Shown: positions 37,713 to 42,397, counted from the first letter of the stretch. The stretch is 49,093 nucleotides of DNA from Bdellovibrionales bacterium (GCA_020435295.1 JAGQZV010000003.1:1-49093), one strand, 5' to 3'. The notes: generated from the letters alone by a model not told the origin. A program made the numbers and translations.

Positions 37713-37740
37713 TTGGAAGCCGTACATGTTGTGGTAGGAT
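37713..37740 (+). promoter_or_regulatory. Candidate promoter of the arsenite methyltransferase gene
   Basis: TTGGAA (37713-37718), a 16-base spacer and TAGGAT (37735-37740); the start point would be near 37747, just before GGGAGGGGG and the ATG at 37764. No ArsR-type operator recognised. Confidence 0.4.
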
Positions 37741-37763
37741 GCTGCGCTGGGGGAGGGGGTAAG

Positions 37764-38804
37764 ATGGACGCCACGATTGAAAGCGTAAAAGAGTATTATG
37801 GGAAGGTGCTGCAGGGATCTAAAGATCTCAAAACCAGTGCCTGTTGTGCAGTGGAGGCGCTATCGCCGGCACTGCAGAAAATTGTATCGCAAATACACCC
37901 CGAAGTGCGGGATCGCTTCTATGGTTGTGGAGCTCCGTTCCCGGCGCAATTAGAAGGCGCAACTGTCTTAGATTTGGGATGTGGAACAGGAAGAGATTGC
38001 TACGTGCTGTCTCAGTTGGTAGGCGAATCGGGGCACGTAATTGGCGTCGACATGACGCCCCCTCAACTTGAAATTGCTCGAACGCACGCCGAATACCATA
38101 GAAAGCAATTCGGGCACTCCCGATCGAACGTAACCTTTCTCGAGGCATACATCGAAGATCTTCAGTCTGCTGGGATTGCGGACTCTTCCGTGGACGTTGT
38201 GGTGTCGAACTGCGTGACAAATCTATCCCCAGACAAAAAGCGGGTGTTTTCGGAACTGCTTCGCGTTCTTAAACCCGGCGGAGAGCTCTATCTTTCTGAT
38301 GTGTTTTCGTTGCAGCGTCTGCCCAACTACTTCCGCGAAGATCCAGTACTGCTTGGCGAATGCTTGGGGGGGGCGCTCTACGTAGAAGATTTTCGCCGAC
38401 TGCTTCTTGACCTCGGTGTTCGCGACTACCGCGTTATGAACCGTAGCAAGATAGAGTTAGTCAACGACTCCGTGGCCACCAAAGCTGGCGGTTTTGATTT
38501 CTATTCCATAACGGTACGGGCTTTCAAACTTGATTTGGAAGATCGTTGCGAAGACTACGGACAGGTGGCCCACTATTTGGGATCCATTGCGGAAATGCCG
38601 CATGGGTTTCGTCTGGATGATCACCATTATTTTGCGACCGGAAAAAGACTGGCTGTCTGTAGCAATACGGCCTCCATGCTGAGCGCTACCCGTTTTGCTC
38701 CTCACTTCTGCATTGAGGGGAATCTGAAGCGTCACTACGGGTTGTTTGATTGCGGCCCGGCTGCCGCCGCCAGCGCCGATCCGGGCCCGGGGGCGTGTTG
38801 CTAG
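37764..38804 (+). CDS. arsM: Arsenite S-adenosylmethionine methyltransferase
   Basis: 346 residues. SAM-binding VLDLGCGTGRDCY (68-80) and GVDMTPPQLEIA follow the class I fold. The As(III)-binding cysteines fit: Cys55 in FYGCGAP, Cys150 in VSNCVTNLS and Cys200 in LLGECLGGAL. The C-terminal region (HHYFATGKRLAVCSNTASML, RFAPHF) is also typical. It methylates arsenite to volatile or less retained species. The extreme C-terminus is Ala/Gly/Pro-rich and ends CC. Strong G-rich ribosome binding site. No other ars gene lies beside it; the next operon is metabolic. Confidence 0.93.
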   Translation: MDATIESVKEYYGKVLQGSKDLKTSACCAVEALSPALQKIVSQIHPEVRDRFYGCGAPFPAQLEGATVLDLGCGTGRDCYVLSQLVGESGHVIGVDMTPPQLEIARTHAEYHRKQFGHSRSNVTFLEAYIEDLQSAGIADSSVDVVVSNCVTNLSPDKKRVFSELLRVLKPGGELYLSDVFSLQRLPNYFREDPVLLGECLGGALYVEDFRRLLLDLGVRDYRVMNRSKIELVNDSVATKAGGFDFYSITVRAFKLDLEDRCEDYGQVAHYLGSIAEMPHGFRLDDHHYFATGKRLAVCSNTASMLSATRFAPHFCIEGNLKRHYGLFDCGPAAAASADPGPGACC

Positions 38805-38879: not shown

Positions 38880-39740
38880 ATGGTTACCAAATCTTTTCCA
38901 GCTTGGGCAGAAATCATCAATTTAAAGGACTACCCCATTGAAGATTTGAATACGGCGCAGGCGCAGGCTCTGCTCGCGCGCTGCCGCCACTCCTTGCAGC
39001 AAGACGGGAGTTGCGAGATGCCGGGTTTTGTAACCCCACTAGCCTTGGAGCGCCTGGTGCAGGAAGGGCACTGGCTAGAGGGGAGCGCCTTTCACAATTC
39101 TCTTGTCGGCAATGCCTATCTGGACGAATTGGATCCGTCCCTACCCGAGGGAGATCCACGCCGAGCGGTGGACGTGACATCCTTGGGCGCTGTTGCGTAC
39201 GATGAGTTTCCGATGGACTCTTGGCTTCGTAAGATCTACGAGTGGGATCCGGTGATGCGCTTTATAGGCGCGATCTTGGAACTTCCGGAGATCTTTCGGT
39301 ATGGAGATCCGATGAGCGGACTGAATTTGGCCGTCATGAAGGATGGGGACTACCTGCGGTGGCATTTTGACCAGTGCGATTTCGTTACCTCACTGGCCAT
39401 TCAGCTTTCCGATACAGGCGGTGAATTCGAATTCATTCCTAGGCTGCGCTCGGCAGACAACCCGAATTATGAAAAGGTAAGCGAGGTCCTTGCGGGTAGC
39501 CGAGAAGGAGTGGTTACCTTGGCAAACACGCCCGGGACGTTGCTTCTATTTCAAGGGCACAACTCCATCCATCGGGTTACCAAAATAAAAGGGATGACGC
39601 CGCGGTTGATTGCACTGCTGTCCTATGCGGAAAAAGCCGATCTCATGGGAACGGAGTACTTGCGACGCATCCGATATGGGCGGGTCACGAGTCATCAGGC
39701 GCCCCGAAGTTTTGCGGAGGTAGGCCACCGTGCGTCCTAA
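38880..39740 (+). CDS. 2-oxoglutarate/Fe(II)-dependent oxygenase-like protein
   Basis: 286 residues, cytoplasmic. The double-stranded beta-helix signature is seen as WHFDQCDF (His162, Asp164), SIHRV (His231) and PRLIALLSY (Arg242, for 2-oxoglutarate), with TPGTLLLFQG between. Such enzymes hydroxylate or otherwise oxidise small molecules using O2 and 2-oxoglutarate. GGAGGGGC lies before the ATG. It overlaps the aldehyde dehydrogenase gene by 11 bases and heads a three-gene operon with a methylaspartate ammonia-lyase homologue. Substrate unknown. Confidence 0.78.
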   Translation: MVTKSFPAWAEIINLKDYPIEDLNTAQAQALLARCRHSLQQDGSCEMPGFVTPLALERLVQEGHWLEGSAFHNSLVGNAYLDELDPSLPEGDPRRAVDVTSLGAVAYDEFPMDSWLRKIYEWDPVMRFIGAILELPEIFRYGDPMSGLNLAVMKDGDYLRWHFDQCDFVTSLAIQLSDTGGEFEFIPRLRSADNPNYEKVSEVLAGSREGVVTLANTPGTLLLFQGHNSIHRVTKIKGMTPRLIALLSYAEKADLMGTEYLRRIRYGRVTSHQAPRSFAEVGHRAS

Positions 39741-41202
39741 ACTGGAGTGGGCAGAAAACTGGCTAAGCTCCCCCAAGGGGTTGTATGTGGGAGGAGAATG
39801 GGTAAACGGCCAGTCTTACTATGAGAGCGAAAATCCGTTTACACAAAAGGCCCACGCCCAACTCACCGATGCCACGAGTAAGGACGTAGATCGTGCGGTG
39901 GAATGTGCGCGGCAGGCCCTCAAGGGCCCCTGGGCAAAAATCAGTCGGCGAGAGCGTTCCGAGATATTGCGAAAACTCGGCGCCTTGGTGCGCGACAACC
40001 AGGACGAACTTGCGACACTGGAGAGTCTTGACAACGGCAAGACGTTTGAGGAAGCGCTGGGGGGGGATCTTCCGGACTCCGCGGATATCTTTGACTACTA
40101 TGCCGGGTGGACCGACAAGTTCTACGCTGAGAATTGCCCAGTGGAAGCCGGTTTTGTGAATTACACTGTCCACGAACCCATCGGCGTGTGCGGCTTAATC
40201 GTCCCCTGGAATTTTCCCCTGCTTCTCGCGCAATGGAAAGTTGCCCCGGCCCTAAGTATGGGTAACACGGTGATCGTAAAGCCCGCGCCTTTTACGTCGC
40301 TGTCCTACGTTCGATTTGTTGAACTCGTGCATGAGTCCGGTCTTCTGCCTCCCGGGGTGCTCAATCTTGTGACCGGCGATGTGCAAGCAGGCAAAGCGAT
40401 TGCGGAGCACCCTGGAATTGACAAGGTGTCTTTTACCGGCAGTACAGCCGTTGGCAAACAGATCGTCCAGAGTTCGGGTATGACCAATTTAAAAAACGTT
40501 ACGTTGGAACTTGGGGGCAAATCACCCAATATTATTTTCCAGGATACCCCGGACCTAGATAAGGTTATCGACCGTTCGTTTAGTCTGATGTTCTCGCAAA
40601 AGGGTGAGAAGTGCACGGAACCCACGCGGTTTTTAATACACAACGCGGTTTACGATAAGGTTGCCGCTCGCCTCAGGGATTTGGCGCAAGCTGTCCGTTG
40701 CGGGAATCCGCTTGACCCAGAAACTCAGCAAGGGCCGCAATGCCACCGGGCTCATCAAGAGCGCATTTTGACGTACATTGAAGCGGGAAAAAAAGATGGC
40801 GCGAAGTTGCTCTGTGGCGGTGGGCCGGATACCTCGCAAGCGAACGGCTACTTTGTTCGCCCGACGATTTTCGGAGATGTCGACAATCGTTCCAAGATTG
40901 CTCAGGAGGAAATCTTCGGGCCAGTCCTATGCTTGATTCGATTTGAGACGGAAAATGAGGCCATTGGCATAGCCAATGACAGTCCCTACGGACTTGCTGC
41001 CGGCGTTTACACGGCGGATCTGTCACGCGCGCACCGCGTGGCGGGAGCGCTTGAGGCCGGTATGGTTTTTGTAAATCACTACGGGTGTTACCATTTTGCT
41101 AGCCCATTCGGTGGCATCAAGCAGAGTGGTTGGGGGAGAGAAATGGGTGTTCATTCTCTAGCGGAATATACGCGCTTAAAGTCCATTTGGATAAAACACT
41201 GA
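39730..41202 (+). CDS. NAD(P)-dependent aldehyde dehydrogenase
   Basis: 490 residues, full length. Asn161 in PWNFP, Lys184 in VIVKPAP, FTGSTAVGK as NAD contact, Glu260 in LELGGKSPN and catalytic Cys295 in KGEKCTEPTR are all in their expected places. The usual Glu after KPA is replaced by Pro, which may matter for NAD versus NADP. The sequence around Cys295 (KGEKCTEPTR instead of GQxC type) is unusual. GTG start with GGAGGTAGG upstream, overlapping the oxygenase gene. It probably oxidises an aldehyde formed or supplied in the same pathway. Confidence 0.93.
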   Translation: MRPKLEWAENWLSSPKGLYVGGEWVNGQSYYESENPFTQKAHAQLTDATSKDVDRAVECARQALKGPWAKISRRERSEILRKLGALVRDNQDELATLESLDNGKTFEEALGGDLPDSADIFDYYAGWTDKFYAENCPVEAGFVNYTVHEPIGVCGLIVPWNFPLLLAQWKVAPALSMGNTVIVKPAPFTSLSYVRFVELVHESGLLPPGVLNLVTGDVQAGKAIAEHPGIDKVSFTGSTAVGKQIVQSSGMTNLKNVTLELGGKSPNIIFQDTPDLDKVIDRSFSLMFSQKGEKCTEPTRFLIHNAVYDKVAARLRDLAQAVRCGNPLDPETQQGPQCHRAHQERILTYIEAGKKDGAKLLCGGGPDTSQANGYFVRPTIFGDVDNRSKIAQEEIFGPVLCLIRFETENEAIGIANDSPYGLAAGVYTADLSRAHRVAGALEAGMVFVNHYGCYHFASPFGGIKQSGWGREMGVHSLAEYTRLKSIWIKH

Positions 41203-41203
41203 C

Positions 41204-42397
41204 GTGCGCTTTTCCATTCAACACGTGCTCGCCGTACCTGGGCTAGGTGCGTACTACAATGAAGACTTGGCGGGGTTGCAACAAACCCCCATGGCACCTT
41301 CGCTGCGGTACACCGCACCGGCTCGCACAGCGGGCCTGGAAAGGATGCGGCAAGTGGCCGAAGTCTTAAGCGTAGGGCTTCAAGTGCAAACGCACGGCAT
41401 ATTTTGGGGGGACGCCGTGGGTGTGTCCTACGCTGGCAAATCGGGACGTGAGGGCGTTTTTCGAGCTGGTGCAGCTAGCGTTGGGATACTGCAGACGCGT
41501 GTGGGTGAGCTCGGGAGAGATTTTGTCGACGATTGCGAAAGACTTTCGGAGTGGGGAATTTCAAAAGCGTTTGAGTACGGCGTTTCGCAGGCCCTCCTGC
41601 GTGCCCACGCCGCGGTAGCCGGCAAGTCCCTAACCCAGTTCTTATGTGAACGATACTCTCGCCCGCTCCCAACCCAGTCCGTGCCTCTCCACGGATCCTG
41701 CGGTTATGACTGGGAGGACAACGTGGATAAGATGGTGTTCTATCGATTGGCCTCTTTACCGGCGGGGGAGGGCGATGATCTTCCCCATCGTTTGGGGAAA
41801 AACGGGGAAAAACTTCTCAGCTACGTAGGCTGGCTTAAAGAGCGAGTAGCGTTGCAGGAAGGCTACGTACCTGTGTTTCATTTTGATGTACATGGCGGCT
41901 TAGATCTTGTTTTCGATGGGGATCGAGATCGCATCCTTGAGTTCCTGTGCCGCCTTGCCGAAGCTTGTTCGCCGTTTCGAGTGCGGGTGGAAAGCCCACT
42001 GCAGGCAACGTCCCGAGAGGAGATGTTGCAGTCCTATCGCACGCTACATGACGCCCTTAGAAAGGGTCCGGTGGAGCTGGTTGCCGATGAGTGGGCCAAT
42101 ACGCTTGATGACATCAAGGTGTTTGCGGAGGCGGGTGTCGTCGATATGATTCACATTAAGATGCCCGATCTGGGATCGGTCCACAATACAATTCGCGCCA
42201 TCGAGACGTGCCAGAAAAACGCAGTGGCGTCTCTCTTAGGAGGGAGTTGTGTTGAGACATACATGTCGTCGTCAATCGCAGCCCCCATCGCGCTAGCGCT
42301 GCGCCCAACCCTGCTAATGGCGAAATCGGGGATGGGCGTTAATGAAGCGGTGTCTTCTTTAAATAATGAAATGTTACGCGAATTGGCATTGCTGTAG
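41204..42397 (+). CDS. Methylaspartate ammonia-lyase homologue (enolase superfamily)
   Basis: 397 residues. Capping domain followed by an enolase-type barrel. LPHRLGKNGEKLLSYVGWL carries His195; FHFDVHGGL Asp228; RVESPLQ Glu263; LVADEWANTLDDIK Asp295; IHIKMPDLG Lys319; and LLGGSCVET and AKSGMGVNEA complete the family pattern. Methylaspartate ammonia-lyase converts threo-3-methylaspartate to mesaconate. The Gln two residues before the catalytic Lys is His317 here, so the substrate may differ. GTG start one base after the aldehyde dehydrogenase stop. No glutamate mutase genes are visible nearby. Confidence 0.85.
   Translation: MRFSIQHVLAVPGLGAYYNEDLAGLQQTPMAPSLRYTAPARTAGLERMRQVAEVLSVGLQVQTHGIFWGDAVGVSYAGKSGREGVFRAGAASVGILQTRVGELGRDFVDDCERLSEWGISKAFEYGVSQALLRAHAAVAGKSLTQFLCERYSRPLPTQSVPLHGSCGYDWEDNVDKMVFYRLASLPAGEGDDLPHRLGKNGEKLLSYVGWLKERVALQEGYVPVFHFDVHGGLDLVFDGDRDRILEFLCRLAEACSPFRVRVESPLQATSREEMLQSYRTLHDALRKGPVELVADEWANTLDDIKVFAEAGVVDMIHIKMPDLGSVHNTIRAIETCQKNAVASLLGGSCVETYMSSSIAAPIALALRPTLLMAKSGMGVNEAVSSLNNEMLRELALL

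Follow-up and report, generated by a model that had tools for sequence, protein, structure and literature searches.

Amino-acid halogenases and hydroxylases of the BesD, HalB, HalD and Hydrox family act on free amino acids, and BesD attacks C4 of free lysine. BesD is described as an L-lysine 4-chlorinase (PMC10187165). Methylaspartate ammonia-lyase (MAL; EC 4.3.1.2; structures 1KCZ and 1KKO) belongs to the enolase superfamily; the amino group of its substrate is bound by Gln172 and, through water, by Gln73, the C4 carboxylate is liganded by Mg, Gln329 and His194, the C1 carboxylate site consists of Thr360 and Cys361, and Lys331 is the base (PMC7241714). In the aspartase AspB (1J3U), Asn142 and His188 contact the substrate amine (PMC11744663). 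Genes for true MALs are surrounded by those for glmS/E, a CoA transferase and a CoA-ester lyase.

DGTS, a diacylglyceryl ether of homoserine betaine (N,N,N-trimethylhomoserine), is a phosphorus-free membrane lipid that is widespread in algae, fungi and bacteria. Its homoserine betaine headgroup is made by BtaA and BtaB (PMC10685587, PMC3972451), and the same compound is reported to be the main osmolyte of Trichodesmium, a nitrogen-fixing cyanobacterium, and is present in seawater (PMC5864184, PMC13403184). Enzymes that release trimethylamine include CutC, glycine betaine reductase, ergothionase, CntA and BbuA (PMC8364193). These are respectively members of radical, reductase, HAL-like, Rieske and flavoenzyme families, none being of the enolase or aspartase superfamily, although they share their product with the reaction proposed below and ergothionase is likewise a beta-eliminating lyase. 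We found no described breakdown route for homoserine betaine or DGTS, and no pathway of the kind proposed here, in the open-access literature searched, which is weak evidence of absence; this agrees with the initial annotation of the locus, which knew of no pathway combining its three genes.

Results

Gene organization

The window, by which we mean the whole stretch of DNA that was analysed (49,093 nucleotides from a Bdellovibrionales bacterium, GCA_020435295.1 JAGQZV010000003.1:1-49093), is part of a genome of 3.44 Mb that is 96% complete. It contains the following three genes.

38880..39740, plus strand: 2OG-Fe(II) oxygenase, 286 aa (ORF call); BesD/HalD/Hydrox fold, triad His162-x-Asp164...His231 intact, Arg242
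39730..41202, plus strand: aldehyde dehydrogenase (ALDH), 490 aa (ORF call); betaine-aldehyde-dehydrogenase-like, catalytic Cys295 in an invariant K-x-E-K-C-x-E-P motif
41204..42397, plus strand: MAL homologue, 397 aa (ORF call); enolase-superfamily lyase with a remodelled amine site (Ser75, Ser165, Ala187, His230, His317)

The oxygenase and ALDH reading frames overlap by 11 bp, the gap between ALDH and the MAL homologue is 1 bp, and a Shine-Dalgarno-like GGAGG lies upstream of both the oxygenase and the ALDH frames; the coordinates and the shared strand thus bear out the initial description of an operon of overlapping or abutting genes. An arsenite-methyltransferase-like gene upstream was weighed as a possible further member of the operon and rejected, since it adjoins the oxygenase in none of the operon relatives.

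Conservation and layout in relatives

The comparison set consisted of 15 genomes of this class, all from one order. Nine of them encode a member of the oxygenase family, which a search of 344 further genomes of the phylum did not turn up, and the operon-type ALDH (above 840 bits, the next-best ALDH scoring 592) occurs in exactly the same nine, an identity of distribution with a chance probability of p = 0.0002 before allowing for shared ancestry. Scans of the genome contigs recovered nothing with a single-protein query and 14 loci with a four-member alignment. The layouts in the relatives are as follows.

G014 and G009: oxygenase, ALDH, BCCT transporter, MAL
G012: oxygenase, ALDH, BCCT, then the end of the contig
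G005: oxygenase and ALDH at the end of one contig; BCCT and MAL on a second contig
G006 and G007: oxygenase, aspartase-superfamily lyase, ALDH, BCCT
G001: oxygenase, aspartase-superfamily lyase, ALDH, OpuB/ProX-like ABC genes
G003: oxygenase followed by OpuB/ProX-like ABC genes; ALDH on a separate contig

MAL is found in G000, G005, G009 and G014 and the aspartase-type lyase (above 600 bits) in G001, G006 and G007, the two never occurring together; G003 contains neither MAL nor the operon aspartase-type lyase. The same slot can thus be filled by an unrelated lyase, which points to elimination from an aspartate-like substrate, and the conserved co-occurrence in this survey of same-order gene neighbourhoods supports the earlier proposal that the three genes serve one pathway.

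BCCT and OpuB/ProX systems are transporters of betaines, choline and carnitine, mostly of quaternary or sulfonium betaines, and by family membership the transporters in the relatives' operons are predicted to be of betaine type. The operon in the window has no transporter gene, and its own genome has an unlinked OpuB-like ABC system and no BCCT. The same genome carries a btaA-like DUF3419 gene (393 bits) overlapped by a methyltransferase gene in the BtaB position, and it is the only one of the 15 same-order genomes with a DUF3419 gene. This pair is suggestive of synthesis of a trimethylhomoserine betaine lipid, on the strength of a family match for BtaA and of position for BtaB in one genome; an internal lipid source would explain the lack of a BCCT, which as a single case is likewise suggestive.

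The oxygenase

The oxygenase scores 35.8 bits against the HalD family profile PF23169, above the family cut-off, and its AlphaFold2 model (pLDDT 84) finds its best PDB matches by Foldseek in HalB, BesD, HalD and Hydrox (E to 6e-15). While the predicted fold is the same, identity to these enzymes is only 14-16%, and the oxygenase differs from them in its HxD triad combined with betaine-type operon partners. The triad is unvaried across 13 aligned homologues, all of which have His162-Phe-Asp164. The Gly or Ala substitution of the triad carboxylate that distinguishes halogenases, by which space is created for the halide, is not seen, the motif being HxD and not HxG, and hydroxylation rather than halogenation is therefore expected; the enzyme should be of the hydroxylase type within the BesD/HalD family.

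Plasmid-borne relatives of the oxygenase (33-38% identity) were considered as representatives of the same system and rejected, the surroundings examined being devoid of ALDH and lyase. One of these, from Mesorhizobium, has an MttB-family gene and a gene for a Rieske oxygenase as neighbours.

The aldehyde dehydrogenase

The ALDH matches PF00171 (Aldedh) with 555 bits and is 54-63% identical to the versions in seven relatives. Betaine-aldehyde dehydrogenase (Bacillus structure 5GTK) is the nearest named family, but the score of 500.6 bits against the corresponding NCBI equivalog, TIGR01804, is below the cut-off of 668.6, and the catalytic cysteine lies in G-E-K-C in place of the G-Q-N-C of 5GTK.

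The MAL-type lyase

The MAL homologue, the only one in its genome, has the MAL fold (MAAL_C, 246 bits; MAAL_N, 79 bits) and 33% identity to 1KCZ, and at 304.8 bits it exceeds the cut-off (286.15) of the NCBI methylaspartate ammonia-lyase equivalog TIGR01502, so automated annotation would name it accordingly. Using a residue map from solved MAL structures (1KCZ numbering), the metal ligands Asp238, Glu273 and Asp307 correspond to Asp228, Glu263 and Asp295, and the catalytic Lys331 to Lys319; the alpha-carboxylate site (Ser/Thr360, Cys361) is also common to both. The substrate site is different. Gln73, Gln172, His194 and Gln329, all present in 1KCZ and in a glmSE-linked MAL (L030), are replaced by Ser75, Ser165, Ala187 and His317, and Tyr240 and Tyr356 by His230 and Leu344. 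The retained metal ligands and lysine and the histidine in place of glutamine, as first noticed, are thus confirmed by alignment to 1KCZ, and His317 is one of several changes, the others having gone unnoticed at first. The four operon-type MALs have Ser, Ser, Ser and Ala at position 73, Ser at 172, His at 329, His at 240 and Leu at 356, and they keep the metal ligands, Lys331 and Cys361, with Ser at 360.

Gene context likewise separates the MAL homologue from true MALs, whose characteristic partners it lacks. Glutamate mutase (PF06368) was not found anywhere in the genome, which extends to the genome as a whole the earlier remark that no mutase genes are near.

The aspartase-type replacement lyase

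The lyase that takes the place of MAL in three genomes belongs to the aspartase superfamily, is unrelated to MAL and is approximately 390 aa long in the same-order genomes; the operon aspartase-type lyases form a single clade with support of 1.0. Like AspB, they retain the base Ser318 and the residues of both carboxylate sites (Ser140, Thr141, Thr187, Lys324 and Asn326). Unlike AspB, they have Ile for Thr101, which we take to be a further contact of the substrate amine, Ser or Ala for Asn142, Cys for His188 and Phe for Met321. Thr101, Asn142 and Met321 are kept in five ordinary plasmid aspartases; position 188 is either His or Gln among ordinary aspartases and is therefore weaker evidence than positions 101 and 142.

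A Priestia megaterium plasmid encodes a lyase with the same signature together with an ALDH of 55% identity; the plasmid has no oxygenase but carries a gene for a zinc alcohol dehydrogenase. We infer that it would run the same pathway, in which case step one converts an alcohol to an aldehyde, a change that hydroxylation of a carbon bearing the C4-OH would bring about as well, and the presence of the alcohol dehydrogenase is consistent with such a first step.

Other MAL homologues

MttB-family proteins are methyltransferases of trimethylamine and quaternary amines. At all eight of eight loci of Chloroflexi MAL homologues that diverge at position 73 (Ala or Glu), an MttB-family gene lies within 8 kb, where the number of MttB genes in each genome (6-23) would lead one to expect 0.62 in total, although these loci are related and not independent; a zinc alcohol dehydrogenase lies beside MAL in three of them. 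Most of these MALs keep Gln172 and Gln329, so that their link to quaternary amines is contextual and they may have another function. Rhizobial and Gemmobacter MALs are found in gene settings other than that of the operon.

Discussion

In both types of lyase the base and carboxylate residues are intact and the contacts to the substrate amine are gone, leaving in each an amine site without the hydrogen-bonding residues of its ammonia-lyase relatives. Such a shared loss between two unrelated enzymes whose carboxylate sites stay intact is what one would expect if the departing amine carried no hydrogen on nitrogen and was thus quaternary, and we consider it quite probable that the lyase acts on an aspartate-type dicarboxylate and drives off an amine that is bulky or quaternary. 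Substitution on nitrogen is favoured because of the amine-site changes, the betaine-type transporters, and the fact that operon members can be substituted, by an aspartase-type lyase in one case and by an alcohol dehydrogenase in another. Taken together these point to a substrate modified on nitrogen, aspartate betaine, and, of the two positions originally allowed for the oxygenase and dehydrogenase, before or after the lyase, to the former.

In the scheme that we propose, the oxygenase would hydroxylate C4 of homoserine betaine, and as this carbon already carries oxygen the product would collapse to an aldehyde, aspartate-semialdehyde betaine; if C4 is held in the ether of DGTS, glycerol would be freed. 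The ALDH would then convert aspartate-semialdehyde betaine to aspartate betaine (N,N,N-trimethylaspartate), from which Lys319 of the MAL-like lyase would take the C3 proton, trimethylamine leaving and fumarate remaining. It is this succession of alcohol, aldehyde, acid and elimination of a quaternary amine on an aspartate skeleton that gives homoserine betaine as substrate, and the balance of the evidence tilts towards trimethylhomoserine in this role. By a similarly modest preference, we favour an operon that degrades homoserine betaine, whether as the free compound or in the headgroup of DGTS, to fumarate and trimethylamine.

The alternative that fares best is another N-substituted homoserine or aspartate, mono- or dimethylated or with a larger N-substituent, from which a bulky amine other than trimethylamine leaves. 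That both lyases lack the amine contacts says only that ammonia is an unlikely leaving group, and MAL variants at Gln73 in the engineering literature accept a wider scope of amines; the preference of BCCT and OpuB/ProX-type transporters for quaternary or sulfonium betaines and the btaA-btaB-like pair in the genome nevertheless make this reading unlikely.

More doubtful still is release of ammonia from an aspartate with a beta substituent, such as hydroxyaspartate, or from a related amino acid, as initially suggested. The active-site changes uphold the altered specificity for which that suggestion argued, and the MAL fold and catalytic residues are retained; but the changes fall at the amine-binding residues, which are gone from both lyase families, the relatives' operons contain betaine transporters, and the Priestia version has an alcohol dehydrogenase and no beta-modifying enzyme. 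We attach equally little probability to release of trimethylamine by the oxygenase itself, through hydroxylation next to the nitrogen of carnitine or gamma-butyrobetaine, with the ALDH giving malate or succinate and the lyase converting malate (perhaps D-malate) to fumarate. CntA does release trimethylamine from carnitine (PMC8364193), and there are carnitine transporters among the BCCT family, yet a dedicated lyase would be superfluous in such a route, the scores place the lyases with amino-acid lyases and not with fumarases, Thr101 and Asn142 are lost, and the variant with alcohol dehydrogenase would be incapable of the reaction.

A sulfonium version, in which C4 hydroxylation of S-methylmethionine with loss of dimethyl sulfide yields aspartate semialdehyde, then aspartate, then fumarate and ammonia, would suit the order of oxygenase, ALDH and aspartase-type lyase, and some BCCT members carry sulfonium betaines, but we regard it as very improbable given that the ammonium contacts are lost in the lyases and that the part of the oxygenase in this scheme could not be taken over by an alcohol dehydrogenase. 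A divergent MAL engaged in ordinary 3-methylaspartate or mesaconate metabolism is scarcely credible: the TIGR01502 score is set against a genome without glutamate mutase, the absence of glmS/E, CoA transferase and CoA-ester lyase partners, and a changed substrate site.

If homoserine betaine is indeed the substrate, the operon would be a breakdown route for this compound or the DGTS headgroup, and its oxygenase form may in addition be able to split the headgroup's glyceryl ether. The broader proposition, that the enolase/MAL and aspartase/fumarase superfamilies independently became trimethylamine lyases in a homoserine-betaine/DGTS-headgroup pathway, in this Bdellovibrionota-like order and on the Priestia plasmid, we hold to be evenly balanced. 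Were it true, it would add a new source of trimethylamine and two new classes of trimethylamine lyase, and the loss of amine contacts would provide a signature by which such lyases could be separated from enzymes automatically annotated as methylaspartate or aspartate ammonia-lyases.

Variants and relatives of the operon genes

L022:2556-3947, methylaspartate ammonia-lyase (MAL) homologue, Anaerolineae
L031:7995-9251, MAL paralogue, Rhizobium plasmid
L050:7935-10493, aspartase-type lyase joined to a BCCT transporter in a single 852-aa reading frame, Peribacillus sp. R9-11 plasmid pA
L027:4320-8954, oxygenase relative with an MttB-family protein, Ldh-type oxidoreductase and Rieske oxygenase, Mesorhizobium plasmid cluster

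The Rhizobium paralogue, which carries V73/S172/A361/G384 and whose neighbours are an ABC importer and a regulator of the PhnF type, represents another divergent MAL subgroup. Alignment of the Anaerolineae homologue places Ser at metal ligand D307, Asp at Q172 and Ser at C361, changes that may point to an additional function or may be an artefact of the alignment. The lyase part of the Peribacillus frame has the signature I101/S142/C188/F321 and its BCCT part lacks the N-terminus, the whole being either a real fusion or a deletion scar. The oxygenase of the same-order relative G001 is split across two reading frames (L047:7334-7936; G001:C34:29637-30417), through either a frameshift or an assembly error. 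The Mesorhizobium cluster may encode a different quaternary-amine pathway.

Other genes in the window and genome

26404-28606, overlapping genes for a SulP-type transporter and a carbonic-anhydrase-like protein
37713-38804, + strand, arsenite-methyltransferase-like protein
L058:5170-7088, contig C319 of the same genome, BtaA (DUF3419, family match) with a methyltransferase occupying the BtaB position

The SulP-type overlap, read from sequence alone, suggests a bicarbonate uptake pair. The arsenite-methyltransferase-like protein matches several Cys positions of AS3MT-type enzymes; it is encoded on the same strand as the oxygenase, 75 bp upstream of that gene, an arrangement not found in the relatives' operons. 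The BtaA and BtaB-position pair, found in none of the other 14 same-order genomes, probably serves in synthesis of the betaine lipid DGTS.
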